A DNA stretch of 64,000 nt from contig JAFKAC010000020.1 in the NCBI GenBank assembly GCA_025766275.1, forward strand, positions 496,001 through 560,000. Direction: 5' to 3'. This DNA comes from Lactarius indigo (lineage: Eukaryota; Basidiomycota; Agaricomycetes; Russulales; Russulaceae). How positions within the stretch are numbered: position 1 is the first letter of the stretch; every line of letters begins with the position of its first letter. The notes below the pieces were generated by a model that worked only from the letters and a program-made list of their open reading frames with translations, was not told the origin of the DNA and did not search any database. Below, piece after piece: positions 11,277 to 37,025 of this stretch. The position numbers and the translations under genes are program-made.

Positions 11277-13500
11277 TCATATGTTTGCAGGTGTGTACAG
11301 AGTGAGCTGGACCAGTTGAACCACGGTTTCTTCGTCATTTTCAAGGAGGTTGGCAGCGTCTTGTGCAACTTGGTTGAGGAGGATTGCTGTGGTGACATGT
11401 TGGAGAGGGGAAGTGGGCATGGAAGTACAAGAGGATCGGATGTAGGAGAGATACTCTCCCTGGTCACCCATGGGCTGGCTTTTAAGATGTCGTATGGCTG
11501 TTCGGCCCGCTTGATACTCCTTTATCGCTTCCGGAGCAAATACATCGTCCTTATCAACCCACTGATTCTCCGAGTCCAGATACCCTTTCCACTTGACGAG
11601 GTATTGCAATTTCTTCTTTCTGCCGAGGTGCCAGGAGTCCAGGATGGCCTCAACTTCGTACTCCTCTTCACCTTCCACAAGATCTGGTGGCGGACGTGGG
11701 AAGTTCTCGCCGTGAAAGGTCGTACTCTTGTATGGTGTGAGAAGATTGATGTGGAACACTGGATGGATGCTCCACTGTGTGGGAAGTTCGAGACGGTAAT
11801 TATAAGGGGACATCACCTGGACCACCTTAAATGGTCCATGGCATCGCACCACCAATTTTGCCGTAGGCTGATTGGTTTGTAGATGTCTTCCTTCCAACCA
11901 AACCTGGTCACTGACTTGGTAGCGTGGGGTATCTTTATGCCTGACCCAGCTATCTTGTGCCTTTTTGATAAGGTCTTGGGCGAGCTGGCGCACTTCCCTC
12001 AGTTGTGTCAATCTGGTGATCACGTTCGGAATTGGGGATGGCTTATCTGTCCAATCGGCCGTCGGGTTGTACCCCATCAGAAGCATGAATGGTGATTGTC
12101 TCGTGTGCTCATGGGGCCAATTGTTGTGAGCGAATTCCACTATGGGGAGATATGCCGCCCAGTTATCTTGGCACTCATTGGCCCAGAACCACAGATATTG
12201 CTTGAGCCATTGATTGGTTTGTTCAGACTGCCCATCTGTCCGTGGGTGATAGGCCGTTGAAATGTTTTGTTGGATGCCTAGTATGCGGCATACTTCTCTT
12301 GTGAACTTGGAGGTGAACTGGGGGTCACAATCACTGGTGATTTTACACAGTAATCCAAATCGTCTGAACACATGGTCAACGTACAAAATGGCGGTACCCT
12401 CTGCCGTGATCTCCTCATTGCACAGGATGAATATGGATGCCTTGCTACAGTCGTGATCTGTAACGGTCAGAATACTGTCGTACGACTGTGAGGTTGGCAG
12501 TTTAGTGATGAAGTCCAAAGCAATGGTATGGAAAGGAGGGGCCTCCGCAATGGCAGTGATTGGGTGTAATGGTGCACGGGTTGGCCTGGTATTGACCTTG
12601 TTCCACTGACACTCCACACACCCTGTGACGTATTCATACACGTCTCGGCGAATGCGTGGCCACCAATGGTGCTGCTCTACGATTTGTTGCGTCCGACTTA
12701 TTCCAGGGTGTCCGTGTACTGGCGGGTCATGATGGTCTTGTATGATAGCTCGGTATGTCGCCATGGGTCCAGTAATCACCAATCGTCTGTCCTTGTACCA
12801 TTCTCTGTCTATTTTTTTGAGGTGATGGGCGTCGACCCAGGTTTTAATTATGGCGGGGTCTTGTTGTCGCCTTGGTTGTTGCATCATGGGATGTATTTCC
12901 ATCGTGCACACGACATTAGCAGCTCGTATGAACACTTCCAGAGGTAGGATGACCACACCTTGGTTATCTTCCTCTCCCTGATCGTAATCCAGCTGTCTTG
13001 ATAGCGCATCTGCCCTGCCATTGTTCTTCCCCTTGATATGATGGATCTCAAAATCGTACTCCATCAATTCTAATACTTCCCGGGCGACCCTTCGACTAAT
13101 CTTTTGCGGTGTCTTCCAGTACTGCAAGTTCAGATGATCTGAGAATATTTTGATCTTGTGTGGGGAACCTGCAAGTAGAGGTCGCCAGTGTTGGAGAGCT
13201 TTTATGATGGCGAGAAGTTCTAGGTCGTAGATGTCATAATTGCATTCTGCTTTGCTCAGTGTTGCAGAATAGTATCCTATCAGATGCTTGTGCCCGTCAT
13301 GTTTCTTTTGTAGGAGGACTGCACCCACCACGAACCTGGAGGTGTCAACCTCCAGCTCGAATTGATCCTGTAAGTTAGGGTGTGCCAGCACCGGTTCTTC
13401 AGTAACAAGGCGTTTGAGCATCTTGAATGCACGATCTTCCTCCTCTGTCCACTGCCATTCAGTGTCCTTCCTCGTAAGTTGGTTTAGTGGTCGGGCGTGT
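11277..13500 (-). pseudogene. B element: RNase H, integrase and chromodomain
   Basis: A 714-residue minus-strand open frame. In order: RNase H (EVDTSRFVVGAVLLQ ... YDLELLAIIKAL), the integrase HHCC zinc-binding region (HGHPGISRTQQ ... TGCVECQ), the integrase core with DDE residues (ALDFITKLP, SDCDPQF, GQSEQTN), and a chromodomain (EEYEVEAILDS ... LVKWKGYLDSENQW). In related copies the second catalytic block is SDRDPQF, so cysteine replaces arginine here. The frame is separated from RT by a TGA just after NFYCLFI. Integrase inserts the cDNA; the chromodomain probably targets chromatin. Confidence 0.88.
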
Positions 13501-13511
13501 GTAGCAAAACC

Positions 13512-14588
13512 TCAGATGAATAAGCAGTAAAAGTTGCAGAAACCCAAGAAGGAGCATATGTCCCTGACTTTTGTTGGCGTCGGCCAATCCCTGATACCTC
13601 GAACTTTTACTGGATCCATACGTGTTACCCCCTTTTCAAGGATTACCCCCAGGTAATCCATCCAAGGTTGGTGGAAAAGGCATTTGTCAAATTTGAAGTA
13701 CAGGTCGTGTTTTTGAGCAACGCAAAGGACATCCATTACTGCCGCAATGTGGTCTGCGGAATCATGGCCCTTGCACATCGCAATTCTGATGTCATCCATG
13801 TAGACTCTGATTACCGTGCCATGAAGTCCATGTTTTGCAATCATATCCCTGTAGATGTGGTTCATCATCGTTTGGAAGGTCGCAGGTGAGTTTGTGAGGC
13901 CAAAGAACATGACCGTTGGTTCAAAGAGGCTGAATTTGGTTTTGAAGGCCACCTTCTCCTGATCACCATCCCGAATGCGAATGTTGTTATACCCCCATCA
14001 GATGTTGAGTTTGGTATAAATATGTGTGTTGCTAAGGTCGTAGATAAGGTCTTGAATGAGAGGGAGGGGGTATTGGTTGCATATGGTATGGGAATTAATT
14101 ATCCAGTAGTCCTGTACCAGACGTAGTTTTCTGTCCTTCTTTTTAACAAAGAAGAATGATGAAGCGTACGGGGAGATGGAAGGGTGTAAGTACCCTTGCT
14201 TGAGCTTTTCATCTAGAAATTCCTTGAGCTTGCCCTCTTCTTCTTGCATTAGTGGGTATATCTTGCAGTCTATTGCGGATGGGGTATTTGGTTTGAAGTC
14301 GATGGCATGATCCCATGGCCTGGCGGGAGGGAAGCATTGAGATGCTTCTTCGCTGAAGAGCTTTTGGAATGCCTGGTAAACCGCCAGTAACTCCACAGGT
14401 AGTTCCTCCCCCTTGGCTTGAATTGCTAACTTGGTGGATGTGGTAGTGCGTAAATACACATCTTCTTTGTCTAAATCTGCAGCTATTTCTTCTTTCTGAT
14501 CATCAGTGAGGGCAGCTGCAATGACGGTGTGGCGGTGTAGACTGTCCTGCGTACTAATTACCACGGGCATGACCTCCTCGTGTATCAC
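13512..14588 (-). pseudogene. B element: reverse transcriptase, two fragments
   Basis: Two minus-strand frames, 13998-14588 and 13512-13952, together make the RT domain. The first holds the lead-in (RPWDHAIDF) and the finger region (SSFFFVKKKDRKLRLVQDYW). The second has FGLTNSPATFQ, the catalytic YMDDI and FLGFCNFY. The first frame ends in TGA where sister copies read the R of RWGYNN, and the second ends in TGA after FI; both fit CGA-to-TGA changes. The protein cannot be made intact. Confidence 0.88.
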
Positions 14589-14664
14589 CGTGTCTCACCA
14601 GTTGATAGTTGGCTTGTAAGTTGCCAACCACAGGTATCCCAGCACGATGTCCTTGGTTCCAAGG

Positions 14665-15201
14665 TGTAACGTTGTCACGACGTTAGCTCGACTTGAGCAC
14701 GATGCGGCAATAACAACTTAGCGATAACTCTGGCACAACGACTCGAAGGTTTGTGCTCTTGCCCTAAGTGAATACTCGGAGGTACACCGGCAAGACTCGC
14801 AGTCTCTATACTTGTCACAATCAAAGTTGGACGTGGAGCGGAATATAATAAGGACGCGATCAAGGCAAAGATGGAAAGAAACAAGTGACGATTCAAGAAG
14901 ACCAAGATGGCATATCTTGGTCTCCACAAGACATCTTAAATACATATCGAGCAGGCTTACAAGCGCTGCTATGAGTCACAGTAAGGAAGCGTCCAACGTA
15001 TCGCATAAGTATCTCAAACACCACAACTACTAGTACCTGTACTAGTATCGAGTCATAAAGGTACCACTCAGTCAGCTATCACGCGCAATCTCCTATCGTA
15101 CTCGTATCGCCTATCGTAAGTCCGCAACTAATATACCTTACTGCCGTAGCTGCAACCGGTACAGTAAGGGTTCACAAGACAGTCAAGTTCCGAACGTGAC
15201 A
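14665..15201 (-). mobile_element. Solo LTR, variant of family B
   Basis: A 537-bp solo LTR (plus strand TGTAACGTTGTCACG ... GAACGTGACA) flanked by CAAGG (14660-14664 and 15202-15206). It interrupts the protease-RT junction of the B element. Its ends and central hairpin (GACCAAGAT / ATCTTGGTC, about 14897-14922) match the B LTRs, but it is about 90 bp longer and diverged, so it is a separate subfamily inserted later than the host B element. Confidence 0.92.
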
Positions 15202-15556
15202 CAAGGTCCATTATCAAGAATTGCATGGTCCTATGATATCCTTTGGCATATACATCGAGGTCAGTGAAGTGAGTGATAGACCCAGCTTTATTTTCCATGT
15301 TATCAATGTTCCAGATCTTTCATGGTTGGGTCATTGGTTGGACTCCAATGCCCATTCTTTTTGCGAAGTTTGGGTGTATGAAGTTGTCAGTGGCTCCCGA
15401 GTCCACCAGTGCTTTTATGTCGGCCATTCGGTAATTCGTGCGAATCGAGACTGGAATTTGAAGAGAACAAAAGCGCATCATGATTACAGAATTACAATTT
15501 AAAGCCCTCACCCAGGCCGATGAGTTCAGGTGCTCCGAAAACCCTCTTTTCCCCAC
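15202..15556 (-). pseudogene. B element: aspartic protease fragment
   Basis: Minus-strand frame 15320-15556 encodes the start of pol: a lead-in (WVRALNCNSVIMMRF), then the retropepsin motif in ALVDSGATDNFIHPNFAKRMG. The protease matures Gag-Pol. The downstream part of the domain is split off by the solo LTR at 14665-15201. The pol frame overlaps the end of gag at -1; a canonical slippery heptamer GGGAAAA, in the gag frame as G GGA AAA, lies at 15547-15553 (complement). Confidence 0.8.
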
Positions 15557-17500
15557 AGGTCCTGCAATATCAGGTCCTTTACTTCATCCAGGGCTTTGGC
15601 TACTCCTGTAAGCCACTCTTTGGCCCATTCTTCTGCGGTTTTGCTTGTCGAGGCAGCCTGTATTTGGGCCGGCAGTACTTCTTGTGCATAGTAGTCTGTT
15701 TCAGTCATCCAGACAGCAGAGGGTCCAGGATTCTGTGGCTGCCACTGTCACGGCTGTCTGGGGTTGGGGCAATTTCATGAGAGATGGCCAGGCACATTAC
15801 AATTGTAACATAGCACCGTTCTTAGATCTTGTCAGGACCCTCCTCTTCCTCGTCCCCTCGCCCCCGGCCCTCCTCTTGGTGGGAAGGGGGGCAGGCCCAT
15901 GTATGGCAGCTTGTTGTAGTCAATTTCTTCCAATCCCGCCAATCTAGCCTTAACTCGATCGGCAGACGTATCCATTGCCCATGGGTTTGCGAGGTTTTGA
16001 GGGACAGTCCACCCGGCATTGCCCATTTTCTTCGGCTTGTTATCCTTGTATTCATCCACTCTGGCTCGGATATGGATGTAGTTGTGTTGTCGGCAAAGCG
16101 TTGCTTGCTTCCACTTGTCAAATGTTTCTGGTTCATCCAGATCGTAAGTCTTCTTGTACAACTTTTTGGGCAGTCCTTTGGTGAATAGGTCGATGGTTTG
16201 GGGGTCGTTGAGGCAATATCCTGCTTTCCTGGCAGCTTCTTCAAATTCATTGACGTATTTGTCAATGTCTCTGTTGATCATTTTGAGCCCCTTCCTTAGA
16301 AGTGCTTGAGCTTGTTCACGTTCGAGGGTGTTGACGAACCTTTGGTTGAAACCCTCTGCTACTGTGTTCCATAGATCTCTTGTATGTTGATCTATTCCTC
16401 GTTGTATCTGCCGGTTGAGCCATTTGAGGTACAACAGTACCCATTCGCTGATCAACACCCCTTTGATGTAGGAGAGAAATAGGAGACTTCGCCGGTAGTC
16501 GTTGCACATGATGGGGGTGTCAAGGTTCATCCCCCAATATATGTGCCATTGCATGAGGAACGAGTCCACCTTAGTGCGATCTCTGTCAAAAATGGTGGGG
16601 GGTTCACCTGTTAGTTTCTCATGTCCATGTCCTCCTCCTCCTCCACCTGGTGGGCCTCCACCTCCGCCTCCACCTGGGGGTCCCCCTCCTGGTGGATTGT
16701 TCAGGAGGTCTGGTGGGTTTCCTCCTCCTCCTGGTCATCAAGGGAAGTCCCCTTTGGGAGGTCCTCCCCACCCTGGTGGGGGGTCGAGCAATAGTCCTTG
16801 TCTTCGCCCTCCTCCTGATGGAGGGTCGCCTTGATCGGGTCCAATAGCCCAAGAAATTGCTGCGTCGTCTGCAGTCATACGATGCCCCGTTTCGGGGTTG
16901 ATGGGTAGAAGGTGTCATTGGGACTGCTTCAGCCACTTCTTGCGCCGCTTGTTCTCTTACTGTCATGATTTCTTCCGCCGTCATTGTAGTTGTGGCCATT
17001 TCTGCTGTGGGTGATCGTACGTGAATGACCTCTGGTTGTTCTGAGATGTGCAGAGACTCAGCTCGTTGGATGGTGTATTGCTCAATAGGTCTGACGCTTG
17101 CTGGTCGGTTTTCTTCACTTTGTTCTTCTTCTTCTGTTTCTTCACTCACTGCCTCTCTGGTGGAGTGTTCTTGTATTTGGCCGTTGATTGGCCCCCAATT
17201 GGCTCACATATTGAGTTCATGCGCGTTGATGTCACACTGATACTGTCTTCCTGCTGGTCTGACAACGTCCCAGCGATGGTCTACGGGGTTCCACGTAACT
17301 TCCACCCAGCACAGATGGTCGAAATTGAACTCAACAGGTCTGAACCTCGTGGGTCCGTTGAATTCTACAAAATATCCGGTTTCATCTCCTCGGTCCCTCC
17401 AACGGGCTGCTCCTATGAATCGGGTTGGTACGTTTCAATCCCCTCTTCGTTCCAGATGATATGGATGGAAACTCATCCACTGATCACGGGTGTTGACAGT
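15526..17500 (-). pseudogene. B element: gag
   Basis: This encodes the structural Gag of family B in several minus-strand frames. An N-terminal conserved block (about 17200-17420) is followed by an acidic/glutamine-rich region (16860-17149), a proline-glycine repeat (16630-16800), the gag core (15832-16569, SFLMQWHIYWGMN ... EREQAQALLRKG ... DPQTIDLFTKG) and a degenerate zinc knuckle (CYNCNVPGH, with the last cysteine missing, about 15800). The end (WGKEGFRST) overlaps pol. A TGA near 17207 and frame changes between the blocks make it non-functional. Confidence 0.82.
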
Positions 17501-20350: not shown

Positions 20351-21272
20351 TCATATCACAAAACACAATAGTCTCTCACCTTTCTCTGAGTCACTGCTAT
20401 TGCTGCCAATGACCAGTTCTGAACCCAAGGAAAGTTCCAAACCTATGGGCCCTGTTCTATAGTCTTTCTGCTTGTATGATGATTTTGGCTGAGCTACTCC
20501 TGATTGAAGAATGATAATCTGTTCGATACTTGCATTGAAAGAGTCTTCTTCCTTCTCCTGAAAAAGATAATGGTGTAATTTGCAACGAATATCAACCAAT
20601 GAATCCTCCAATGCCTCATTCACATCTTGTGGTTCCACGAAACGATGGTCGGACGTGTAAACATGAAGCGGACAAACCCGATATTCATGTTTAATCCTGT
20701 CCAACTGCCCTCGCAAGTCTTCCAGGACAGGCCAGTGCTCTGTATCCAAGTCAACTGTTTCTTTAGCTTCTATCACTTGTAAAAGATATAAGTTAGTTTC
20801 ACTGGCGATTCAACATGAATGCACCTTCTTGACCTGACTGTAAATCGGCCAAATAAACATCCCTTTTTGGAGGAATTTTATGAGCCTATAACACAGTCAA
20901 CCCCTTCATGTCTTGGCACACAAGTTTCCATTCACATACCTGTTTCTCGTACATGCTTCGCGTGAACCGGAAATTCGTATCATGACCAACTTTAATCATG
21001 AAGTTTAACACCTTCTTAGTAGTTGCTTTCTGGCCTTGAATCTGTGTGAAATTGGCGATAGCTTTGTCATAATCTCCTGCAAACACCGTTCCAATTGGCT
21101 TGGAGATATGCAACTGGAATTTTGATGTCTGCAAAGAACTGTAACTGAGATTTGAATAATTGCCCCTCGGATTACAATCCAAGTGATTGGGAAGAACCCG
21201 TCCTACAACAGAGACAACGGCATTGCCTCTTGTTCTTTTGTTGACGAGAATGTTTCCAAATTGTTGAGAACG
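20351..21272 (-). pseudogene. Unrecognised spliced gene, 5'-truncated by element D
   Basis: Three minus-strand exons fit in phase: 21272-20940, 20885-20825 and 20775-20351. Intron 1 (54 nt) is GTATGT...TAG; intron 2 (49 nt) is GTGCAT...AAG with a CTAAC branch site. The joined product runs through SQQFGNILVNKR, FAGDYDKAIANFTQ, AHKIPPKRDVYLADLQSG and EHWPVLEDLRGQLDRIKHEY to a stop at 20351. I do not recognise the protein. The reading frame is intact up to the point where the D LTR begins, so it lost its 5' end there. It may be a host gene or a gene carried by the Helitron; its position directly after RepHel, on the opposite strand, leaves both open. Confidence 0.6.
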
Positions 21273-21957
21273 TGTCACGAACCTATAAACCTGGTCGTGA
21301 CTCAAGGTGCTTAGGACCGGACCGGGCTTACGTCATCAGCTTCCTAAAGGGGAAATCCGAAATCGGAGTTTGAATTTCGCTCCCCGACGGTCACGTGATG
21401 CGTCACGTGATTACTCTGTCTTTCCAAGTCACATGTGCACATGCACGTGTATCAATCAACGATTGATAGTTTATCGATCAACGAAGATAATCAACCAAGT
21501 CACAAGGAACACGTGATCTAATCACGGGTTCCGCAGCTGCTGTGGAATCACGCCACTATGGTGCAATATGGCGCCATCGACTGCGGCGCAGTCGTACCAT
21601 GCTTATCCTGTATTCTGATTGGACAGTATTAATAACCTGTCTCTGGAATGTTCCAATCTGCAGTATTGCGCAGCACTCGTGGACAGGCCCTAAGCCTGCC
21701 CTAAAGTTACGCACAGACCACCCCCTGTAGTATATAAGCTAGCTCAATCTATCGGACAGTCCCTCAGACTGTCCACTTGTGACATCTTCCTCTCTTGCCT
21801 CTCAGCTCCTTCGAGTGCCCCACCTTGTGTGCGCCACTATCTTCTTTGAGCCAAGACGCCTCCTCTCCGCCCCCTTCGACGCTCTCTCCGTCTCTACCTC
21901 GCCCGCCGTCGTCTTCAACCATATCCCTCGCTGTCGAGTGACAGTGAGTTCACCACA
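21273..21957 (+). repeat. 5' LTR of element D
   Basis: A 685-bp LTR, TGTCACGAAC ... TTCACCACA. By eye it differs from the 3' LTR (30500-31194) at three substitutions plus one extra ACCGGACCGG unit, so insertion was recent. U3 holds four CACGTG hexamers (21392, 21404, 21444, 21510). The outer flank GAACG does not match the flank of the 3' LTR (GAAGC), so no target duplication is seen. Confidence 0.95.
21733..21774 (+). promoter_or_regulatory. D core promoter: TATA box, start site and U3/R palindrome
   Basis: TATAAG begins at 21733. The inverted repeat GGACAGTC (21754-21761) / GACTGTCC (21767-21774) follows. The predicted transcription start is A at about 21766, 33 nt after the TATA T, because the sequence from there (AGACTGTCCA) is complementary to the primer-binding site just past the LTR. 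The start position is inferred from that complementarity and the usual TATA spacing, not measured. Confidence 0.65.
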
Positions 21958-21959
21958 CT

Positions 21960-21969
21960 TGGACAGTCT
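21960..21969 (+). promoter_or_regulatory. D primer-binding site (self-priming type)
   Basis: TGGACAGTCT starts two bases after the 5' LTR and is a perfect 10-nt complement of AGACTGTCCA, the predicted mRNA 5' end. No complement to a tRNA 3' end (normally beginning TGG and extending up to 18 nt) could be tested here, but the match to the element's own transcript, also seen in families A and B, favours Tf1-type self-priming. Confidence 0.65.
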
Positions 21970-21983
21970 CTTTAATAGACTGA

Positions 21984-23255
21984 CCTCGGGCGTTTCCAGT
22001 GGATTCAGACTACGACTTTTCGCAGTTTGGACATTGGGACGGAGACTCCTGCAGCTACCAGGAATACGATCATTTCCAGGGTAGCCCCCTTGACTCCATC
22101 TTCACTTGCTCTCCTGTCGCATCCACCTCTCGTCTCCCAGATCCTCCTTACATCCCTCTTCCCACTCCAAGCTTCTCCCCCCCTGTCATCCCCTCGCCCA
22201 TCTTAGAAAGCCGGGAAGTCACCCCAGAGTTAGTTTACCCTGACCCTGAAGCCACCCCTCGCCCCTCCCCTCGTTCCGTCTCACCTAGCACCGCACAATT
22301 CTACGAAGAAGTGCTCAAGATAGTAGACCTCAATGGAAACATAGTTGAGCTCTCTCGCACTCCTTCCCCTGAACCACGCGCCGAGTCTGCGCCCCCCATT
22401 CGTCTTCCCACACCTCGTCCCCCTCTCCCTTCCCACGCAGCAACTACCCCTCGTGCCTCTCCTTCGCTACCTGTTGATACTCCTCCGCGTCCTCCTTCTC
22501 CCTCGCCTCCTCCAGTTGCCTCGCGCCCCCCTACCCCTGACTCCCCTATTAACTACGAGAGGGTAGCCGAGCAAGCCCCTCCTGTCCCTCACCCCAACCA
22601 GGAGAATATCCCTCCTGCTGCCGCCGCCGCCTACCAAGCTCCCCCTTGTCTCCTTCACCAAGGAGAACACCCCCATCTCTACATCGCTGTCATCACTCCC
22701 CAAGGAGAGTCTTGGCGGCCTGCCTCTACTACACTTCGGGAACTGATCACTAAAGTTCCCCTCGCTACTACCCTCGCCAACTACCCCCCAGTTTTTCCTT
22801 CCGTCACCCCCTTCCGTCTCCTCTCCCCTCACGTCTATACCCTTTTCCCTCGCATTGTTGATCCCACTCAACACCCCAACTTCCCCCCCCTCTACATCTG
22901 TTCCAGGGCCGTTTACAACCTTCCCTCTCCAGACACCCCCTTTGGAACTATTCGCTACGACTTCAGGGAGGGCCTGCGGCGTGCTTTTGCCCCCCTTACT
23001 AACATTCATAGGGCCGGATACATTGATTCTCTAGTTACCCTAGAGATTCAAGACTTCTTGGATGGGAGAATTGTAACCTCTTACGGACATCTTCGTTTCG
23101 CGGTTGACGGACAGATCTACACTTACCACCAAGCCTACTTTTTTGAGGACTTAGTTCGCGCCTCCCCCCATTTACTTGCTTATTGTCTTACCCCTCGTAT
23201 CCCTGCGGACCCTTTTTCCTTCATTACTACCTTCCCCGACTCCCAACCCCTCTAG
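21984..23255 (+). CDS. D leader open frame 1, no methionine codon
   Basis: An open frame of 424 codons with no in-frame ATG, between the LTR and gag. I do not recognise the product. It is proline-rich at first (runs such as PPRPPSPSPPP) and then becomes globular-looking (IRYDFREGLRRAFAPLTNIHRAGYIDSLVTLEI). The DNA is rich in C and T. Only two ATGs occur in any plus-strand frame, near 22333 and 23062; both are out of frame and reach a stop after two to three codons. How it could be translated is unclear: a near-cognate start, or it may be leader rather than gene. The long stop-free run argues for coding constraint. Confidence 0.45.
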   Translation, partial: PRAFPVDSDYDFSQFGHWDGDSCSYQEYDHFQGSPLDSIFTCSPVASTSRLPDPPYIPLPTPSFSPPVIPSPILESREVTPELVYPDPEATPRPSPRSVSPSTAQFYEEVLKIVDLNGNIVELSRTPSPEPRAESAPPIRLPTPRPPLPSHAATTPRASPSLPVDTPPRPPSPSPPPVASRPPTPDSPINYERVAEQAPPVPHPNQENIPPAAAAAYQAPPCLLHQGEHPHLYIAVITPQGESWRPASTTLRELITKVPLATTLANYPPVFPSVTPFRLLSPHVYTLFPRIVDPTQHPNFPPLYICSRAVYNLPSPDTPFGTIRYDFREGLRRAFAPLTNIHRAGYIDSLVTLEIQDFLDGRIVTSYGHLRFAVDGQIYTYHQAYFFEDLVRASPHLLAYCLTPRIPADPFSFITTFPDSQPL

Positions 23256-23313
23256 AAGTCAGTAAGGAGGACGAACCTTTTTTTTTGAAAAAACAAATAA
23301 ATTTGCCTTGACT

Positions 23314-23396
23314 ACTTAAAACGAGTGTTTTAAGTCTCAACGCAAATAGTAAGTAAACCGTTACTATCCAAAGGTCTTAAACCGAGTGGTTTTAAG
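23314..23396 (+). promoter_or_regulatory. Pair of hairpins between D leader frames 1 and 2
   Basis: Hairpin one: ACTTAAAAC (23314-23322), loop GAGT, GTTTTAAGT (23327-23335), a perfect 9-bp stem. Hairpin two: CTTAAACC (23376-23383), the same GAGT loop, GGTTTTAAG (23388-23396), with one bulged T. A weaker one, AGTAA/TTACT, lies between them. Similar hairpins, ACTTTT/AAAAGT (24454-24469) and TTAAGT/ACTTTAA (24471-24487), separate frames 2 and 3. Sequences this alike at each junction suggest an RNA-level role; which one is unknown. Confidence 0.5.
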
Positions 23397-24436
23397 TGCC
23401 CCCAGAACAACTTACCGAAGCTCAGAGGCTAGCGCTAGCCCAAGCCAACTTTGAAACCCACAGACGACGACAACTTGAACGTTACTACCCCTCTACTGCC
23501 CTTGTCGACTTAACAGCTGTAAACAACGCTGACTCCTGGACTGACCCCCCCACTGCCCTTAACAAATTCCACTTTAGCTTTGACTTTGGAAGAATACTAA
23601 GCGAAGAAGGCTACGAAACTCTTATCGACTGCCTCCCCATCCTAGTAGACGACGCCCACGAGCAACTTCTTTACTGGCACCTTTCAGGCGCCGTCACTAC
23701 CAACAACAGACCAGCGGATCAATATCTAGTTTGGACCAAGAGCGACTTCCTCTGGTTCATTTACATTCCCCCTCGAAGAGAACGACTTATCAGGAGCATA
23801 GAAGCAGGACGCACCAAACGATACATCAACCGGGTTCTCCTCAACTACCAACAACTACAAATCAATTTTCAAGAACTTCGGGTGGTTAGAGTTGGCAACT
23901 CCCCACCTCGACTTGTTATCGTTGACGGAAAAGAGTTTTCCTACCTCTTCAGCACCGGAGTTTGGGAAACGACACTCCCCAACCCAGACCAACCACCAGT
24001 AAATCCACGAACGTTCCTCGAACCCCCCCGAGAACCCGACGACCCGGAACTAGTAGAACTCATACAAGCCAGAGGAGGAAGAGCTTCTGAACGACCACGG
24101 TCGATCGCTCTACTCGCTCGAATCGCAGAAGCAGGACCAGGCTTTGAACCCCTAGTCCCCTCAACCCCCAGCCCTGAATACTCCCCCCCACCTCCGGACG
24201 AAATCCCCTCTCCACGAGACAGCGACATCTCCCTTCACAACGGAGACACTGACGAAGAAGGTGCAACAGTAGTGGACACTTGGAACAATCCAGTCAACAC
24301 TAACCCCTGTTGGTGTTCAAACGAAGTTTGTACTTGTGGATTTAGACCAGCTACCCCCCCTACCCCTCCTAACGTCGTATTGTGGGCCCCTGGACTTAAT
24401 TACTTACCGTACCGAGGAAGCGTAGACGATTTTTAG
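23396..24436 (+). CDS. D leader open frame 2, no methionine codon
   Basis: An open frame of 346 codons without any in-frame ATG, beginning at a GTG and ending in TAG at 24434-24436. The stretch has no ATG in any plus-strand frame. Unrecognised product: a charged start (EAQRLALAQANFETHRRRQLERYY), a globular middle (YLVWTKSDFLWFIYIPPRRERLIRSIEAG ... RLVIVDGKEFSYLFSTG), a proline-rich tail and a cysteine cluster (NPCWCSNEVCTCGF). The DNA is A/C-rich, so 346 codons without a stop is unlikely by chance. Its frame differs from frames 1 and 3. Confidence 0.45.
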   Translation: MPPEQLTEAQRLALAQANFETHRRRQLERYYPSTALVDLTAVNNADSWTDPPTALNKFHFSFDFGRILSEEGYETLIDCLPILVDDAHEQLLYWHLSGAVTTNNRPADQYLVWTKSDFLWFIYIPPRRERLIRSIEAGRTKRYINRVLLNYQQLQINFQELRVVRVGNSPPRLVIVDGKEFSYLFSTGVWETTLPNPDQPPVNPRTFLEPPREPDDPELVELIQARGGRASERPRSIALLARIAEAGPGFEPLVPSTPSPEYSPPPPDEIPSPRDSDISLHNGDTDEEGATVVDTWNNPVNTNPCWCSNEVCTCGFRPATPPTPPNVVLWAPGLNYLPYRGSVDDF

Positions 24437-24474
24437 AAATTTTGTCGGGACCTACTTTTGCTGAAAAGTGTTAA

Positions 24475-25176
24475 GTCACAACTTTAAGCAAAAACCCGAG
24501 AAAATTATACCTGTCAAACATCAACCTGGAACCCATCACAAACTGGGCAATCACCCTGGCTTCCACTCAACGCACTACAAGAAGACGTCATCACCGTCCC
24601 CAAGTAGATACCCGCCCCCTTACCTCCACAAATACCACTCCAGTAATCCCAAGACAAGCAGCACGTACCCAAAGGCGAATCCCTAGCCAAATCCCTAGCA
24701 TTAATCAGTCCAGTCCAAACGAACCTGTTTTCCCTAGCATCCAAGACATCCCTAGACAACACACCACCAGTAGTGACGAAGCACAATACCTAGAAACCCA
24801 ACCAAGAGAAATTTACTGTCACCTCCCTGAGGCGATCCTAGTAACCAAAAGTTTACCCACACGAACCCCCAGAGAACTCGACGTCTTCAAGCGACACTGT
24901 ACCCTCCTCTATCAAAATTGACACACTAACGAAACATTGTTTTTTGCCCAACCACTCACCAGGGCAACAGAAATCACCACCAGCCCCTTATACTTCCAAG
25001 ACTTCTTGTGGAGAAGTAAAACCATCCTAACCCATTTTGGTATTTGGGAAGAATACCACTGGATCCGCCGACAACAAAGAACCAACCACCCAGACCGTGC
25101 CATCTTACTCCCTGCCTATAAAGTTTATTACCCTTGGAACATAGATAGTTGGACTGTCACCCGCCTGCAAAATTAG
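24475..25176 (+). CDS. D leader open frame 3, no methionine, one TGA, in frame with gag
   Basis: An open frame of 233 codons after a TAA at 24472, interrupted once by TGA at 24919-24921 and closed by TAG at 25174-25176. It contains no ATG. The second part reads FFAQPLTRATEITTSPLYFQDF, then HFGIWEEYHWIRRQQ and VYYPWNIDSW; I do not recognise it. It is in the same frame as gag and separated from the gag ATG only by TAG TGG, so stop readthrough would yield an N-terminally extended Gag. The internal TGA may be a CGA-type mutation of this copy. Confidence 0.4.
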
Positions 25177-25179
25177 TGG

Positions 25180-26727
25180 ATGAACACACAACGACCTCTT
25201 ACACCAGAAGAAAAAGCCCACATTCCAGTATACTTCTTCGACCCCTATTTTTCCCTTACCGACAACCTTTACTACACCAAGTGGAAAGAAGAGGACATAT
25301 CCAGCCCTACAGGAAAACACCTGTGGACAATAGTTGCTACCAAACATCAAATCGTTTTCCAGGACCTCAAAGAAGCCTTTCCAGGTATCGAAAAGGTTAA
25401 AGACGTAAATTACAACACCCTACACGCCGTCTTCAAAGGAAAGAACGTCCGTTGGAACTTTGTAAACGAGCAGTGGATCTACCTAAACAACAAACCAGTC
25501 CACTTCAACACACCTAGTGAATCCGACGATTCAACAAGTGATACAGAAGAAGTATCACAAATCTTAGAAACTACTACCAAGAAACTCTCCGGCCTGCTAT
25601 CCCAAGTAACCTCTCGACCCTCGACACTCCAGATCTCCCCTAGTACTGCTGGTCCAAGCCGCCTCCCTGCACCAATTCCCCCACATCGACTCCCATCACC
25701 ACCTCTGACCATTCAAGTGTCTTCCTCAGCACCCCCCTTATCCGTTCCCCCCGTACCCACTGCAATGGCAGCCCCTGTGCCTGCAAAAATCCTAGGTGCA
25801 GCACCTGAGCCCTTTGACGGAAAGCCCAACCATGCTGAGGCTTTTTGGAACAACCTAGCCAACTACTTCCACCTAAACCAGGATATCTTTAATACAGACG
25901 ATAAAAAGATATCTACTGCTCTCACCTACTTCAAAGTGGGGACCTCAGCTGGAGAGTGGGCTCAAGATAGACAAAAGAAAGCCTTGAACCCAACCGGAGG
26001 AGTGGCAATATCCTTTGGCACCTGGGCACAGTTCAAAACTGACTTTGATGCACACTTCGTTCCTGGTCATACTGCCATGGAATCCACCAACAAAATGTAT
26101 TCTCTGAAGATGGGGACTCGACCTTTCAATGAATGGTTCCAAGAATGGTCAACCCATGCTACACGAAGTGGTGCAAATGAACAAACCAAGATGTATGCCT
26201 TCCGACAAGCTATTCCAACAGCTCTGAATATGAAGCTGCTCGGCATATCTCCCATTCCTACCACCTTCGACACCCTCGTTGAGAAAGCAAGAGAATTCGA
26301 TCGCGCCTATCGAATTTATGCTGGAAACGCCATTAACCAGTTTAACAAAACCCATAAGCCCACCACAGGACGAGCCGTCCTAGCAGAAGACGATAGCGTA
26401 AATGTCAACGCCTCCTCATCACGTACTAAACCAAGAGCCAAGCTTACCAAAGAAGAGCGGGAGTACCGCTTCAAGAATAAACTCTGTTTGTACTGTGGCA
26501 AACCAGGCCACGTACTTAAAGAATGTCACGCCAAAACGGCAGCCATGAAGGCCAAAGGAGGCCAATCCAACAACAATGCTAGGACGCGCGGCACCTTTGT
26601 TGATGAACCAAGTCAGGAGGAAGCACCTGCTGACCACCCAGCAAACATTGGAGCGATATATCGAGAGATACTCCCTTTTGACCCGGACGCACGTCCACGT
26701 TCGGTGCCTATTAATGAGGATTTTTAG
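25180..26727 (+). CDS. D element Gag
   Basis: A 515-residue open frame starting at the first useful ATG of the element. It has an N-terminal region (PVYFFDPYFSLTDNLYYTKW), a serine/proline-rich hinge, the retrotransposon gag core (EPFDGKPNHAEAFWNNLANYF ... FVPGHTAMESTNKMYSLKMG ... FNEWFQEW ... FRQAIP) and a complete CX2CX4HX4C zinc knuckle (CLYCGKPGHVLKECH, about residues 430-445). Gag forms the particle and packages RNA. The stop TAG is preceded by GAT TTT, where a -1 shift leads into pol. No internal stop: this copy appears intact. Confidence 0.9.
   Translation: MNTQRPLTPEEKAHIPVYFFDPYFSLTDNLYYTKWKEEDISSPTGKHLWTIVATKHQIVFQDLKEAFPGIEKVKDVNYNTLHAVFKGKNVRWNFVNEQWIYLNNKPVHFNTPSESDDSTSDTEEVSQILETTTKKLSGLLSQVTSRPSTLQISPSTAGPSRLPAPIPPHRLPSPPLTIQVSSSAPPLSVPPVPTAMAAPVPAKILGAAPEPFDGKPNHAEAFWNNLANYFHLNQDIFNTDDKKISTALTYFKVGTSAGEWAQDRQKKALNPTGGVAISFGTWAQFKTDFDAHFVPGHTAMESTNKMYSLKMGTRPFNEWFQEWSTHATRSGANEQTKMYAFRQAIPTALNMKLLGISPIPTTFDTLVEKAREFDRAYRIYAGNAINQFNKTHKPTTGRAVLAEDDSVNVNASSSRTKPRAKLTKEEREYRFKNKLCLYCGKPGHVLKECHAKTAAMKAKGGQSNNNARTRGTFVDEPSQEEAPADHPANIGAIYREILPFDPDARPRSVPINEDF
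26719..26727 (+). promoter_or_regulatory. Probable -1 frameshift site between D gag and pol
   Basis: Gag ends GAT TTT TAG. Pol is open in the -1 frame from just after a TGA at 26715-26717, so the two frames overlap by only about 10 nt and the shift must occur here. In the run TTTTT a P-site TTT can slip back onto TTT, giving TTA GGC next. The heptamer T TTT TAG is not canonical (the A-site codon is the stop itself), so stop-stimulated slippage is the simplest reading. Confidence 0.55.
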
Positions 26728-29700
26728 GCTCTTCCATCGTAGCACTGTCGATTGGAAGTATTCGTGCCAGTAGCGTTGTACACGGCCTTTCCCTACTAGA
26801 GACGCTCGGAGCCGAGCATGTACCTGTAGAAACAATTCGGAATAGGAGAGCTCCTTCAATTGTTCTCAGAGTTACACTAGTAGGAAAGAAGTCTGGCAAA
26901 GAAATCAGTGCCCGTGCCCTGTTGGACAGTGGTGCGGAGGGCATCATCGTAGATGATGGGTTTGCGCGTGCAAACAACCTAACAATGCGAACACTAATCA
27001 AACCCTTACCAGTTAGAAACGTGGATGGGTCTCCCAACAAGACGGGATCTGTTAGGTATACTACGATCCAGAGACTACGGATCAGAACTTCTGATGACAA
27101 CCACCACGACGAAACCGTGGAACTCTATGCAACTACCCTAGGGGAGCATGATATAATCTTAGGAACAGATTGGCTCCAAGCACATAATCCTGAAATCGAT
27201 TGGCATCAACCAAAAATAGCCTTCACACGATGCCCAAGAACCTGTACCCTGTCCTCCTCAGCAGTTGTCATCTCTTCGAAAACACCGCAAACACGACATA
27301 CGACTATTAACATCCTCGAACTCGACTCTGGCCAAGAAACCTGTCTCCCCATAAATGAAGATAGTGAACCCCTGGAACCTGCCTTCCTTGACAATGCCTA
27401 CGAACCCTGGCTGTGGATCCACAGCTTTAGCAAGTATGACCACCTTGCCATCCGAGCAAAAGTAACTACAAGCACCAAGATAGCAGCACACACTGCACCT
27501 AAGCCTTCCACCGACCACATTCCGAGCCACTTCCAACGGTACACTAAGGTATTCAGCGAAGTCGCATCCCACCGACTACCCCAACATCAGCCCTGGGACC
27601 ACGCAATTGACCTCAAACCAGGAGCCACTATGAAGAATTGTGGCATTTATCGACTTACGCCAAAGGAATCCGATGCCCTCAAGGAGTACATCTCTGAACA
27701 CCTAAAGAAAGGTTACATTCGACCATCTAAGTCACCCATGGCCTCCCCCTTCTTCTTTGTCGACAAGAAGGACGGCAAACTCCGACCTGTGCAGGACTAC
27801 CGCGCCCTCAACGACATAACCATTAAAAATGCAGCCCCCCTTCCCCTTATCCCTGAACTTATCGACAAACTCCATGGTGCGCGCTACTTTACCAAGCTAG
27901 ATATTCGTTGGGGATACAACAATATCCGCATCCGCGAAGGCGATGAATACAAGGCAGCCTTCAAAACATCCTTAGGACTCTTCGAGCCAACCGTAATGAC
28001 TTTTGGCCTCTGCAACGCCCCTGCCACTTTCCAAACATTCATGAACCAAATCTTCAAGTCCTTGATTGATGGTGGACACGTAGTGGTCTACCTCGATGAC
28101 ATCTTGATCTTCACGGAAGATATCTCCTCACTCACAGCGTTGACACACGATGTGCTTCAGCGGCTGGAACGCCACAACCTCTACCTGAAACCTGAAAAAT
28201 GTACATTTGCGCAAACTTCGGTCGAATACCTTGGAATTGTCATTTCTGATGGCCAAGTTTCTATGGACCCTGCAAAGGTTGCAGGTATTACTCAATGGCC
28301 CACTCCGCGCACTGTCAAACAAGTACAAGCCTTTCTAGGCTTTTGCAACTTCTATCGACGCTTCATTAAAGACTACTCCACGATCGCCCGCCCACTGTTT
28401 GACCTAACCAAGAAAGATGTCCCCTTTTCTTGGGGAACTGCGGCGGAAAACACTTTCCGCACCCTGATTGACTGCTTCACCAAAGCTCCTGTACTTGCCC
28501 TACCTGACCATTCTAAACCCTTCCGCCTCATCACTGATGCGAGTGATTTTGCTACCGGTGCCATCCTGGAACAACCTGATGCCTTGCAACGTTGGCACCC
28601 CGTCGCCTTCCTTTCTAAATCCCTCCTCCCCGCTGAGCGTCACTACGAAATCTGCGACAAGGAACTTCTTGCCATCGTCCATGCCCTACATGCTTTCCGC
28701 CACTACCTGGAAGGGCGGGACGACGTTACTGAAATCTGGTCTGACCATGGCAACCTTGTCTATTTTACCACGAAACAAAAACTTTCCCGCCGACAGGCCC
28801 GGTGGGCCCTATTCCTCTCTCGCTTCCAGTTCATCATCATCCACAAACCTGGAACGCAGAACAAATCTGATGCGCTGTCTCGGCGTCTGGATCATAAAAA
28901 GGGGATAGCGGATGAAGATGAAAAGCGAGTGCTCCTGGACACCAAATATTTTTCCATTAATGCAGTACAAAGAACTGCAGTAACCATTCACGGTGATACC
29001 ACCCTCCGACAACGTATTAAAAACACCCAGACCTATGACAAGGAAGTCAGCATGGCTCTAGAATCCCTCTTAAAGAATGGCCCTCGATCCCTAGCTAAAG
29101 GCCTAGAAGAGTGGAACTTAGAAGACGGCATTATCTTGTTCAAAGGACAAGTCTATGTTCCCAAAGATAACAACCTACAAAGAGACATCGTTAAAACATA
29201 CCACGACCACATTGCCACAGGACATCCAGGACGATGGAAGACCTATGAGTTAATATCCCGAGACTTCTGGTGGCCAGGAATATCAACCTTCGTTAAAACC
29301 TACGTTGATGGTTGCGCCACATGTCAAGCCACTAAAATCAAACCGCGTACCCAAGTACCCCTACAACCAAATGCAATACCTGAAGAAATATGGGGAACCA
29401 TCACAATGGACTTCATCACCGACCTTCCCCTATCTCACAACTACGATTCACTATTTGTAGTGGTTGACCGACTCAGCAAAGCTATAATTATTTCCCCTTG
29501 TAACAAAACCATCACTGCAGACGAAACAGCCCAACTCTACTTAGAAAATGTCTGGAGACGTACTGGCCTCCCGCGACAAGTCATATCCGACAGAGGCCCC
29601 CAATTTGCATCGAAGGTCATGCAAGAAATCTGGAACAAACTTGGAGTCAAATCCACACTATCTACAGCCTTCCACCCACAAACTGATGGAGAAACTGAAC

Positions 29701-30488
29701 GAGTTAATCAAGAACTCGAACAATATCTTCGCGTCTTCTGCAACTTCCAACAAAATAACTGGGTGGATCTAATCCCATTCATGGAATTTGCACACAATGC
29801 CCAACAACATAGTGCAACCCACAAATCACCCTTTGAGGTTTGGTATGGATACAAACCAGAGTTCATTCCCCCCACCCACTTCACCACCAAAATACCTGCA
29901 GCTGAGGAGAGACTAAACGCGCTAAATCAAATCCGCTCCGAAGTTACCGCAGCCCTTAAGGTAGCAGCGGAAGTCATGAGAGGGTCGAAAACACCCACCC
30001 CCTCTCACGAATTCAAGACAGGCGATCTAGTCTGGCTGGAAGGGACCAACATCCATACCACCCACCCCAAAGCTAAACTTGCCCCACGACGCCACGGCCC
30101 CTTTAAAATCCTTTCCACCTGGGGAGTCAACTGCAAACTCCAACTCCCAAAGACATGGCGCATCCACCCAGTCTTCCACAACTCCTTGATCTCTCCATAC
30201 ACAGAAAACACTACGCATGGCCCCAACTTCACCAGACCACCCCCTGAAATCATCCAAGGGGAAGATGAACACTACGAAGTTGAAAGGGTCTTGCAATCCA
30301 AGGTATCGCCTAACAAGAAGGGCATACTCTACTTGATCAAGTGGAAGGGGTATCCTGACTCCGAAAACTCTTGGCTCCCCTCCTCCCAAATGACCCATGC
30401 GCAAGACCTTGTTAATCAATTTCACAAGGCCAACCCCAGTGCCCCTAAACCGAAGTCAACTAGTGCTAGTGGAATAGCACGACGTTAA
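26724..30488 (+). CDS. D element Pol: protease, RT, RNase H, integrase, chromodomain
   Basis: An open frame of about 1254 residues. Protease: ALLDSGAEGIIVDD (near 26917). RT: PWDHAIDLKPG, PFFFVDKKDGKLRPVQDYR, FGLCNAPATFQ, the catalytic YLDDI (near 28090), FLGFCNFYRRF. RNase H: LITDASDFATGAIL, ICDKELLAIVHAL. Integrase: HHCC zinc region (GHPGRW ... DGCATCQ), then the catalytic residues in MDFITDLP, SDRGPQF and GETERVN. Chromodomain at the end: YEVERVLQSK ... LIKWKGYPDSENSW. This order is that of Ty3/gypsy chromoviruses. All visible catalytic motifs are present and no stop interrupts, so the element may be active. A polypurine tract (AAAAAGGGGATAC) follows directly. Confidence 0.95.
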   Translation, partial: LGSSIVALSIGSIRASSVVHGLSLLETLGAEHVPVETIRNRRAPSIVLRVTLVGKKSGKEISARALLDSGAEGIIVDDGFARANNLTMRTLIKPLPVRNVDGSPNKTGSVRYTTIQRLRIRTSDDNHHDETVELYATTLGEHDIILGTDWLQAHNPEIDWHQPKIAFTRCPRTCTLSSSAVVISSKTPQTRHTTINILELDSGQETCLPINEDSEPLEPAFLDNAYEPWLWIHSFSKYDHLAIRAKVTTSTKIAAHTAPKPSTDHIPSHFQRYTKVFSEVASHRLPQHQPWDHAIDLKPGATMKNCGIYRLTPKESDALKEYISEHLKKGYIRPSKSPMASPFFFVDKKDGKLRPVQDYRALNDITIKNAAPLPLIPELIDKLHGARYFTKLDIRWGYNNIRIREGDEYKAAFKTSLGLFEPTVMTFGLCNAPATFQTFMNQIFKSLIDGGHVVVYLDDILIFTEDISSLTALTHDVLQRLERHNLYLKPEKCTFAQTSVEYLGIVISDGQVSMDPAKVAGITQWPTPRTVKQVQAFLGFCNFYRRFIKDYSTIARPLFDLTKKDVPFSWGTAAENTFRTLIDCFTKAPVLALPDHSKPFRLITDASDFATGAILEQPDALQRWHPVAFLSKSLLPAERHYEICDKELLAIVHALHAFRHYLEGRDDVTEIWSDHGNLVYFTTKQKLSRRQARWALFLSRFQFIIIHKPGTQNKSDALSRRLDHKKGIADEDEKRVLLDTKYFSINAVQRTAVTIHGDTTLRQRIKNTQTYDKEVSMALESLLKNGPRSLAKGLEEWNLEDGIILFKGQVYVPKDNNLQRDIVKTYHDHIATGHPGRWKTYELISRDFWWPGISTFVKTYVDGCATCQATKIKPRTQVPLQPNAIPEEIWGTITMDFITDLPLSHNYDSLFVVVDRLSKAIIISPCNKTITADETAQLYLENVWRRTGLPRQVISDRGPQFASKVMQEIWNKLGVKSTLSTAFHPQTDGETERVNQELEQYLRVFCNFQQNNWVDLIPFMEFAHNAQQHSATHKSPFEVWYGYKPEFIPPTHFTTKIPAAEERLNALNQIRSEVTAALKVAAEVMRGSKTPTPSHEFKTGDLVWLEGTNIHTTHPKAKLAPRRHGPFKILSTWGVNCKLQLPKTWRIHPVFHNSLISPYTENTTHGPNFTRPPPEIIQGEDEHYEVERVLQSKVSPNKKGILYLIKWKGYPDSENSWLPSSQMTHAQDLVNQFHKANPSAPKPKSTSASGIARR

Positions 30489-30499
30489 AAAGGGGATAC

Positions 30500-31194
30500 T
30501 GTCACGAACCTATAAACCTGGTCGTGACTCAAGGCGCTTAGGACCGGACCGGACCGGACCGGGCTTACGTCATCAGCTTCCTAAAGGGGAAATCCGAAAT
30601 CGGAGTTTGAATTTCGCTCCCCGACGGTCACGTGATGCGTCACGTGATTACTCTGTCTTTCCAAGTCACATGTGCACATGCACGTGTATCAATCAACGAT
30701 TGATAGTTTATCGATCAACGAAGATAATCAACCAAGTCACAAGGAACACGTGATCTAATCACGGGTTCCGCAGCTGCTGCGGAATCACGCCACTATGGTG
30801 CAATATGGCGCCATCGACTGCGGCGCAGTCGTACCATGCTTATCCTGTATTCTGATTGGACAGTATTAATAACCTGTCTCTGGAATGTTCCAATCTGCAG
30901 TATTGCGCAGCACTCGTGGACAGGCCCTAAGCCTGCCCTAAAGTTACGCACAGACCACCCCCTGTAGTATATAAGCTAGCTCAATCTATCGGACAGTCCC
31001 TCAGACTGTCCACTTGTGACATCTTCCTCTCTTGCCTCTCAGCTCCTTCGAGTGCCCCACCTTGTGTGCGCCACTATCTTCTTTGAGCCAAGACGCCTCC
31101 TCTCCGCCCCCTTCGACGCTCTCTCCATCTCTACCTCGCCCGCCGTCGTCTTCAACCATATCCCTCGCTGTCGAGTGACAGTGAGTTCACCACA
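30500..31194 (+). repeat. 3' LTR of element D
   Basis: A 695-bp LTR, nearly identical to 21273-21957. The differences seen are C for T (CAAGGCGC versus CAAGGTGC), a 10-bp ACCGG-unit gain, C for T (GCTGCGG versus GCTGTGG) and A for G (CTCCATC versus CTCCGTC). It is followed by GAAGC, which belongs to the A2 pol sequence. Confidence 0.95.
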
Positions 31195-31766
31195 GAAGCC
31201 TTCCTCACGGAAGATGAGCTCTTTCGACTTCAAGCAGCTGTCCCGCGTGGTACAACCACCCAACGCCATGAAGAAGTACGAACAAGAATGGAAGGAGACG
31301 GCGGCGCGGTGGCAGCGGGAGCAACTGCATATCGCCGCTTGCCGACGACGGATGATGAAGGAACGGAGGGAGTACTGGACGAAGATGAGGATGAAGACGA
31401 ACTTGGAGACCACTACCCCATCAGGCACGCATTCCTTAATCATGAATTCTACACTGAAGATCCAGCCGCCACTCCCTACCTCGTCGACGCAGCGGGGGGG
31501 CCTTTACACAGGGGACGAGTCGCCATGGCACAAGCGGCTCGTTATACACCAATGGGCGAACGAGACCCAGCAACCAGGGTCGTCGTCCCTGAAGGGTTCC
31601 GGGTCAATAGAGGACCCGATTACATTCTGTTCCCGATCAAACTCCCCAACGGACCGACGGTACAAGCATCCCACGTACAGGTTATCCGAGGAGGAGACCC
31701 CTTCGTACTCGGACTAGCTCCGGGGTCAGGCTTCCTTTACGGTAAACCCCTCTACGCCACACCTCA
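31195..31766 (+). pseudogene. A2 element: end of pol linker and accessory region, part 1
   Basis: Right after the D LTR the plus strand reads, in the family A pol frame, FLTEDELFRLQAAVP and onward without a stop through HEEVRTRMEGDGG. Here CGA stands where A' and A3 have TGA, so the accessory region is fused to pol in this copy. It continues EDEDELGDHYPIRHAF ... PEGFRVNRGPDYILFPI ... RGGDPFVLGLAPGSG. The 5' part of A2 (LTR to chromodomain) is missing. A solo LTR interrupts at 31767. Confidence 0.7.
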
Positions 31767-37020: not shown

Positions 37021-37025
37021 AAGAG

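Follow-up and report, generated by a model that had tools for sequence, protein, structure and literature searches.

A leader nearly free of AUG, with three conserved open reading frames and two predicted introns that split start codons, in a chromodomain Ty3/gypsy retrotransposon family of Lactarius indigo

The window analysed here is a stretch of 64,000 bp from Lactarius indigo (assembly GCA_025766275.1, contig JAFKAC010000020.1, positions 496,001 to 560,000 of the forward strand), and all positions below are counted from its first nucleotide. It contains a retrotransposon with a long leader upstream of gag. Between the long terminal repeats (LTRs), which are 98.1% identical over 695 aligned columns, reverse transcriptase (RT), RNase H, integrase and a C-terminal chromodomain follow each other in this order, as in Ty3/gypsy chromoviruses. 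The leader forms the 5' part of this element, a chromodomain Ty3/gypsy LTR retrotransposon. The main features, including three open reading frames (ORFs) upstream of gag, are as follows.

21273-21957, plus strand: 5' LTR (TGTCAC...CACA), ends read by eye
21944-21999, plus strand: predicted intron 1, 56 nt, GTGAGT...CTGAC...CAG, containing the primer-binding site (PBS)
22000-23255, plus strand: ORF1, 418 codons counting a split ATG, stop TAG; proline-rich N-terminal half and conserved C-terminal half
23349-23396, plus strand: predicted intron 2, 48 nt, GTAAGT...TTAAG
23397-24436, plus strand: ORF2, 346 codons counting a split ATG, stop TAG; C-terminal CxC...CxC motif
24526-25176, plus strand: ORF3, CTG start (AAC CTG G), stop TAG; premature TGA at 24919-24921 in the window copy
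25180-26727, plus strand: gag (PF03732, E 2.2e-7)
26922-30488, plus strand: pol (protease, RT, RNase H, integrase, chromodomain), from domain matches; the open frame may start further upstream
30500-31194, plus strand: 3' LTR

From the predicted 5' end of the RNA to the start of gag (21766-25179), the plus strand contains exactly two ATG triplets, at 22333 and 23062, versus 18.4 expected from dinucleotide frequencies. There is none from 23065 to 25179. The complementary triplet CAT occurs 40 times, with 33.7 expected. An earlier reading of the same sequence (the original prediction) had found the same two triplets, had counted about 38 CAT by hand and had concluded that composition does not explain the lack of ATG; the recount agrees.

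Other members of the family were sampled by means of gag matches in the 90.3-Mb genome (40 scored among 123 candidates), and the leaders of 39 other matches were taken. Thirty-eight of these were homologous to the window leader, with approximately 68-94% identity in aligned pieces; one, L039, was not. In a first tally of the window and all 39 leaders, ATG was found 93 times versus 732 expected, and CAT 1297 times versus 1228 expected. L039 was left out of all later counts, giving a sample of 39 copies including the window. Two of these (L053 and L059) lack part of the 5' end and have no U5 anchor, so that the anchored set comprises 37 copies. Without L039, the 3,200 nt before gag contain 64 ATG in total, where about 17 per copy are expected; 15 of the 39 copies are free of ATG in this region and 31 have at most two.

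Shuffling of synonymous codons in the intact copies gave 93 expected ATG for ORF1 (33 copies), 133 for ORF2 (30 copies) and 70 for ORF3 (33 copies), versus 19, 11 and 6 observed. The ORFs thus hold 0.08-0.20 of the number expected given the same proteins, which indicates avoidance of the triplet as such on one strand, both in frame and out of frame. Near-cognate triplets show no general depletion. Further upstream, the U3 region (-700 to -250 from the U5 hairpin, 37 anchored copies) held 268 ATG versus 343 expected. The next 300 nt (-250 to +50, beginning about 50 nt before the TATA box) held only 4 versus 71 expected in the same copies; CAT is also low there (72 versus 116 expected), so composition accounts for part of this local drop. 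At the other end the purged zone stops at gag: gag-pol of the window contains 82 ATG, with 75 expected.

At 22333 and 23062, 28 of the 31 other aligned copies have ACG instead of ATG, so the two ATGs of the window look like C-to-T decay. For the aligned intact ORFs, 35 ATGs were listed. At 30 of them ACG occurred among the listed states of the other copies, and at 21 it was the commonest state; the ATGs that do occur in the family ORFs look like decay in general. Avoidance of ATG is a real trait of the family. At the sequence level it is shown for all frames of the RNA-like strand, from promoter to gag. The purge across the family supports the earlier suggestion that the depletion fits scanning ribosomes that have to reach gag.

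The three long frames without methionine that had been described were all found. From stop to stop they measure 423 (previously 424), 346 and 233 codons, the last with the one internal TGA. ORF1 is open in 33 of 39 copies, ending in TAG in all 33, and ORF2 in 30, again always with TAG. ORF3 is open in 33 copies, so the internal TGA is decay of the window copy; its stops (TGA in 22, TAG in 11) correspond to the two subfamilies. Median ratios of nonsynonymous to synonymous substitution (dN/dS) were 0.14, 0.13 and 0.07 for ORF1, ORF2 and ORF3, and 0.15, 0.20 and 0.08 when only pairs with dS above 0.3 were used. These alignments show purifying selection on all three, which bears out the proposed coding constraint. 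Related copies in which the frames are riddled with stops or ATGs would have spoken against the original prediction; the copies sampled here show neither.

Protein relatives were found at approximately 29-62% identity: at least 35 for ORF1 (8000 candidates scored), 21 for ORF2 and 16 for ORF3. Those of ORF1 come from Lactarius, a basidiomycete (23 of 35 so named), and from metagenomes. Internal methionines are rare in them, with 4 per 6735 residues for ORF2 (n = 21), 1 per 3587 for ORF3 (n = 16) and 5 per 3796 for the 11 of 35 ORF1 relatives that were counted; this count leaves out the protein P0005 and the 23 gene models from Lactarius, which carry various additional exons. The predicted model of ORF2 has an N-terminal core of high confidence (approximately residues 11-190). 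Pfam gave no match for window ORF1, ORF2 and part of ORF3. A comparison of ORF1, ORF2, ORF3 and the gag N-terminus by hhalign gave no convincing match, the best being ORF2 with ORF3 (E 0.0084, probability 4.8%). The models of ORF2 and ORF3 share the order of predicted helices (H) and strands (E), H-E-H-H-E-E-E-E, and such modelling suggests that the two may have arisen by an old duplication. In IMG/VR, ORF1 and ORF3 had no matches, and a match to ORF2 was taken as chance (33 residues, on a contig with ordinary methionine-containing ORFs and no sign of the element).

It could be argued that the frames encode no proteins and arise from base composition or from some other constraint on the RNA. 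The plus strand of the leader is indeed low in G (576 of 3414). However, the loss of ATG is specific to one strand, dN/dS is far below 1, the stops are conserved, relatives extend down to about 29% identity and ORF2 has a confidently modelled core. We give this explanation practically no credit.

For ORF1 and ORF2, the conserved protein sequence starts at a genomic GTG (32/32 aligned copies for ORF1, with L053 dropped; 30/30 for ORF2), and at each of the two sites a short intron is predicted. Upstream of ORF1, the LTR reads ...GAGTGACA^GTGAGT at the donor. Removal of intron 1 would join A21943 to TG22000-22001 and create an ATG in frame with ORF1. The signature A^GTGAGT...CTGAC...YAG^TG, with an intron of 54-56 nt and the branch A of CTGAC 15-16 nt before the end of the acceptor, was present in 37/37 anchored copies (37/39 overall, missing L053 and L059). 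In all 37, the joined sequence gives GACATG followed by M D S D Y D F or M T D Y N Y E Y D F, and the context of this AUG1 is GAC AUG G or A. In the same way, removal of intron 2 would join A23348 to TG23397-23398 and create the ATG of ORF2. All 39 copies carry its signature A^GTAAGT...AAG^TG (47-53 nt, in-frame ATG), and the joined protein starts with M P P E Q L T, M P P S T P F or near variants. Donor, branch point, acceptor, short length and an in-frame AUG at the junction are thus all present for GT-AG introns at the sequence level, with a weak branch point and acceptor in intron 2.

Across the U3, leader and gag-pol of the window, GTRAGT occurs only at 21944 and 23349. In the 39 leaders it is confined to the contexts of donors 1 and 2; one anchored copy carries the donor 1 context twice (38 in 37 copies), and class B copies have two overlapping GTRAGT at donor 2. 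As a control for chance, AGTG sites were searched for A^GTRAGT 45-60 nt upstream. None of 424 such sites in the rest of the window (both strands) had it, with any GTRAGT at 3, and none of 107 sites in six unrelated loci. On the plus strand of the element it was found at 2 of 37 sites, the number expected from two introns. Two introns that both split a start codon as A/TG are hard to ascribe to chance, even though the copies are not independent.

The relatives of ORF1 bear on the same point. Twelve of the 35, all from Lactarius, read ...SDMSDY, with methionine at the predicted junction, as if a gene finder had removed the same intron. P0005 seems to be the unspliced genomic form, its first residues resembling a translation of the PBS (HTWTV) and running into ORF1. 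GTG starts are often written as M in protein records. The initial M of relatives from ENA was rejected as evidence for an ATG; most JGI records have V there.

Another account has no splicing at all: a single unspliced RNA would be read by leaky scanning, with ORF1, ORF2 and ORF3 starting at GTG, GTG and CTG, in the manner of rice tungro bacilliform virus (RTBV). The purge of AUG agrees with it, as do the constant first codons (the GTGs given above, and CTG in 33/33 aligned copies for ORF3) and the JGI relatives, most of which have V as their first residue at this position or close to it (ORF1 7 of 8, ORF2 6 of 7). It also fits ORF3 well. On the other hand, the contexts of the GTG codons are poor (YCA GTG or similar; UAA GTG), the intron signatures place an AUG exactly at the GTG sites in all anchored copies, and an acceptor AG accounts for the G in each GTG. 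We regard translation of all three ORFs from unspliced RNA as rather unlikely, and prefer introns for ORF1 and ORF2.

ORF3 has no start-making intron of this kind. Its CTG has A at -3 and G at +4 in 39/39 copies, and the spacer before it varies between copies by lengths that are not multiples of three. CTG in a strong context (RNNCTGG) is scarce in ORF1 (8 versus 44 expected) and ORF2 (6 versus 38) but not in ORF3 (94 versus 60), which would be expected of scanning ribosomes that start at the first strong CTG they meet. Near-cognate initiation, which the original prediction had offered for the leader in general, is therefore well supported on sequence grounds for ORF3 only, with an ATG made by an intron as the probable alternative for ORF1 and ORF2. 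For ribosome bypass or readthrough, also put forward then, nothing was found in favour.

The gag ATG is the first ATG of the unspliced RNA in ATG-free copies. The start of gag reads ATGA in 39/39 copies (TAGNNNATG in 15/39); in one subfamily the ORF3 stop and the gag ATG overlap in this ATGA, and in the other they are arranged as TAG NNN ATG.

Taken together, the data argue for a polycistronic RNA with four consecutive coding regions (ORF1, ORF2, ORF3 and gag-pol), which would exist in three states: unspliced, with intron 1 removed, and with only intron 2 removed. On the unspliced RNA, which keeps the PBS, ribosomes scanning from the cap would meet no AUG over about 3.4 kb until gag, and part of them would start at the CTG of ORF3. 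Removal of intron 1 would open ORF1 at AUG1. As this also removes the PBS, the product would be a dedicated ORF1 messenger that cannot be primed as a genome. With intron 2 alone removed, ribosomes would scan through the AUG-free ORF1 and start ORF2 at AUG2. An AUG inside an ORF would keep scanning ribosomes from reaching the following ORF, and this would account for the purge: the ORFs that must be scanned through are poor in AUG and gag-pol, which need not be, is not depleted. We consider it probable that unspliced RNA serves ORF3 and Gag-Pol, intron 1 splicing ORF1 and intron 2 splicing ORF2. Splicing and translation of the leader ORFs are inferred here from sequence. The unusual expression strategy that had been anticipated is in this way supported, and the earlier view of the leader as a whole holds in part; it had missed the two short introns.

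Several points weigh against this scheme. The copies share descent, so 37/37 and 39/39 are not independent trials. The acceptor of intron 2 is AAG, less usual than YAG, and its branch point is merely CTTAA-like. AUG2 has C at +4 in 39/39 copies, with C at -3 in 19 and a purine in 20, and the gag AUG has U at -3 in 39/39, so that neither is a strong start. GTRAGT would in any case be infrequent within the ORFs: some 10 are expected in 96 ORF copies, and both of the 2 observed are donor 1, reached because two of the frames extend back into U5. The Lactarius gene models of ORF1 carry assorted upstream exons. A spliced genomic copy with the intron 1 junction was not present in the genome (0 found); for intron 2, class A gave none and class B gave 10 hits, and the 6 of these that were examined proved unrelated. 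The absence of spliced intron 1 copies is expected because the spliced RNA has no PBS; for intron 2 the absence says little. Finally, other near-cognate codons are not consistently avoided: strong-context GTG is inconsistent (ORF1 0 versus 17 expected, ORF2 61 versus 21), and strong-context ACG and TTG are not depleted in ORF1 or ORF2. The CTG result consequently rests on few independent sites.

The leader might instead be one large intron, running from the U5 donor to an acceptor just before gag and leaving a short gag leader. The strong U5 donor is present, and AG dinucleotides occur shortly before the gag ATG in the copies displayed. Such an intron, however, gives no reason for the purge of ATG inside ORF1-3, and inspection by eye showed no branch point of the CTGAC type close to gag, where no systematic search was made. 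The predicted introns remove only about 50 nt each and hence do not amount to a splice that takes out the whole leader. As the full account this explanation appears very unlikely to us, though such a splice may occur as an additional isoform.

The signals and RNA structures around the predicted introns and starts are listed below.

21731-21738, plus strand: TATA box TATATAAG, in 37/37 anchored copies at nearly constant distance
21766-21775, plus strand: predicted RNA 5' end AGACTGTCCA, approximately 35 nt downstream of the TATA box, in 37/37 anchored copies
21931-21944, plus strand: U5 hairpin, GAGU loop, reaching to the donor of intron 1; no variation in the stem pairs among 34 unique sequences
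21959-21969, plus strand: PBS TTGGACAGTCT, seen in the 36 copies displayed for this region
23314-23335, plus strand: hairpin HP1, GAGU loop, upstream of the intron 2 donor
23376-23396, plus strand: hairpin HP3, GAGU loop, between the putative branch point and the acceptor of intron 2; two pairs changed on both sides
24445-24499, plus strand: intergenic hairpin before ORF3, GAGU loop in class B; class A has no GAGU in IGR2
25144-25158, plus strand: near-palindromic hairpin just before gag, with reduced synonymous variation in ORF3 codons 209-220 (0.39 of the mean)

The sequence AGACTGTCCA at 21766 is complementary to TTGGACAGTCT at 21959, the arrangement of Tf1-type self-priming, given the predicted RNA 5' end. 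The near-palindrome at 25144-25158 resembles the PBS and the RNA 5' end, and is possibly an RNA dimer or initiation element.

Hairpins lie immediately upstream of ORF2 and ORF3, and most of them carry a GAGU loop. This raises the question whether the intergenic regions are internal ribosome entry sites (IRESs) that start these ORFs at non-AUG codons in a dicistrovirus-like manner. Their pairs are mostly kept across copies and two pairs have changed on both sides, but the covariation terms are small (0.0 to 0.7), class A IGR2 is without the GAGU loop, and an AUG-free ORF1 would not be needed. Only simple hairpins were seen in the intergenic regions, where no search aimed at pseudoknots or at Rfam families was made, and we hold IRES-driven translation to be highly improbable. 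Under the splicing scheme, the GAGU hairpins beside both introns are, as speculation, candidate binding sites for a regulator, and may bind a protein of the element that sets the splicing state. In its fullest form the scheme would have the start codons withheld from the genome and the proteins switched on by the A+TG junctions, the RNA that retains the introns staying free of AUG over more than 3 kb, with the splice pattern alone picking among the four coding regions and the GAGU hairpins letting a protein of the element work the switch between messenger and genome. This extension is tentative, and we put its chances somewhat short of even.

In its long ORFs without internal AUG upstream of the main ORF, the element resembles RTBV and the badnaviruses (Caulimoviridae). 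In RTBV, according to PMC5902531, leaky scanning passes through long AUG-free ORFs over about 900 nt. Here, in contrast, the region without AUG extends over about 3.2 kb and three ORFs, two of which seem to gain their AUG by splicing, and the carrier is a chromodomain LTR element. A non-AUG upstream start of the RTBV type would fit the CTG of ORF3; the GTGs of ORF1 and ORF2 fit poorly. Tf1 is not known to have ORFs upstream of gag. Tf1 and Tj1 are similar to the present element in their SH3_Tf2-1 and Chromo domains at the pol C-terminus and in an RNA 5' end complementary to the PBS, and for Tj1 a figure legend lists only Gag, PR, RT and IN as parts (PMC4600332). Splicing alters coding in BARE1, copia, Ogre and other LTR elements, and in BARE1 and copia alternative splicing yields a messenger distinct from the genomic RNA (PMC3735527). 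The BARE1 splice takes out 104 nt and thereby introduces a stop behind Gag, whereas in the present element two splices would each produce a start codon, both upstream of gag. Plant LTR elements, too, can carry conserved ORFs in addition to gag-pol; those in one passage of PMC7264820 are envelope-like, lie in sense orientation and are expressed through splicing, unlike the AUG-free ORFs that precede gag here. In the literature, covered in part, we recognised neither a retrotransposon whose start codons are made by splicing nor a description of these ORFs.

Retroelements must choose between translation and packaging of their RNA, and here the choice seems to be written into the start codons, as the loss of the PBS on intron 1 splicing would separate messenger from genome. 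For long-range scanning without AUG, and for near-cognate initiation in fungi, the family offers a clean natural test. The results further suggest that gene finders relying on ATG can overlook three families of conserved proteins. These recur in metagenomes, and that of ORF1 also in Lactarius gene models.

Some further observations concern the copies and the window. L039 carries a family gag behind an unrelated leader with a 772-codon frame containing 8 methionines, and is homologous only over the 188 nt before gag. L031 and L054 are about 76% identical to the window across the ORF1-ORF2 region and 88% and 81% at the ORF3 end, which suggests that they may be mosaics of the two subfamilies formed by recombination. 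Six stretches of old genomic copies were decayed members of the two known subfamilies, and a genome search with a distant relative gave no further family among the matches listed. At the gag/pol border (26700-26922), read by eye, the pol frame is -1 relative to gag. The LTR flanks (21255-21275 and 31190-31210) show no obvious target-site duplication. Other retrotransposon-like frames, their kind judged by eye, lie in the window at 11277-16569 and 33690-39409, both on the minus strand.

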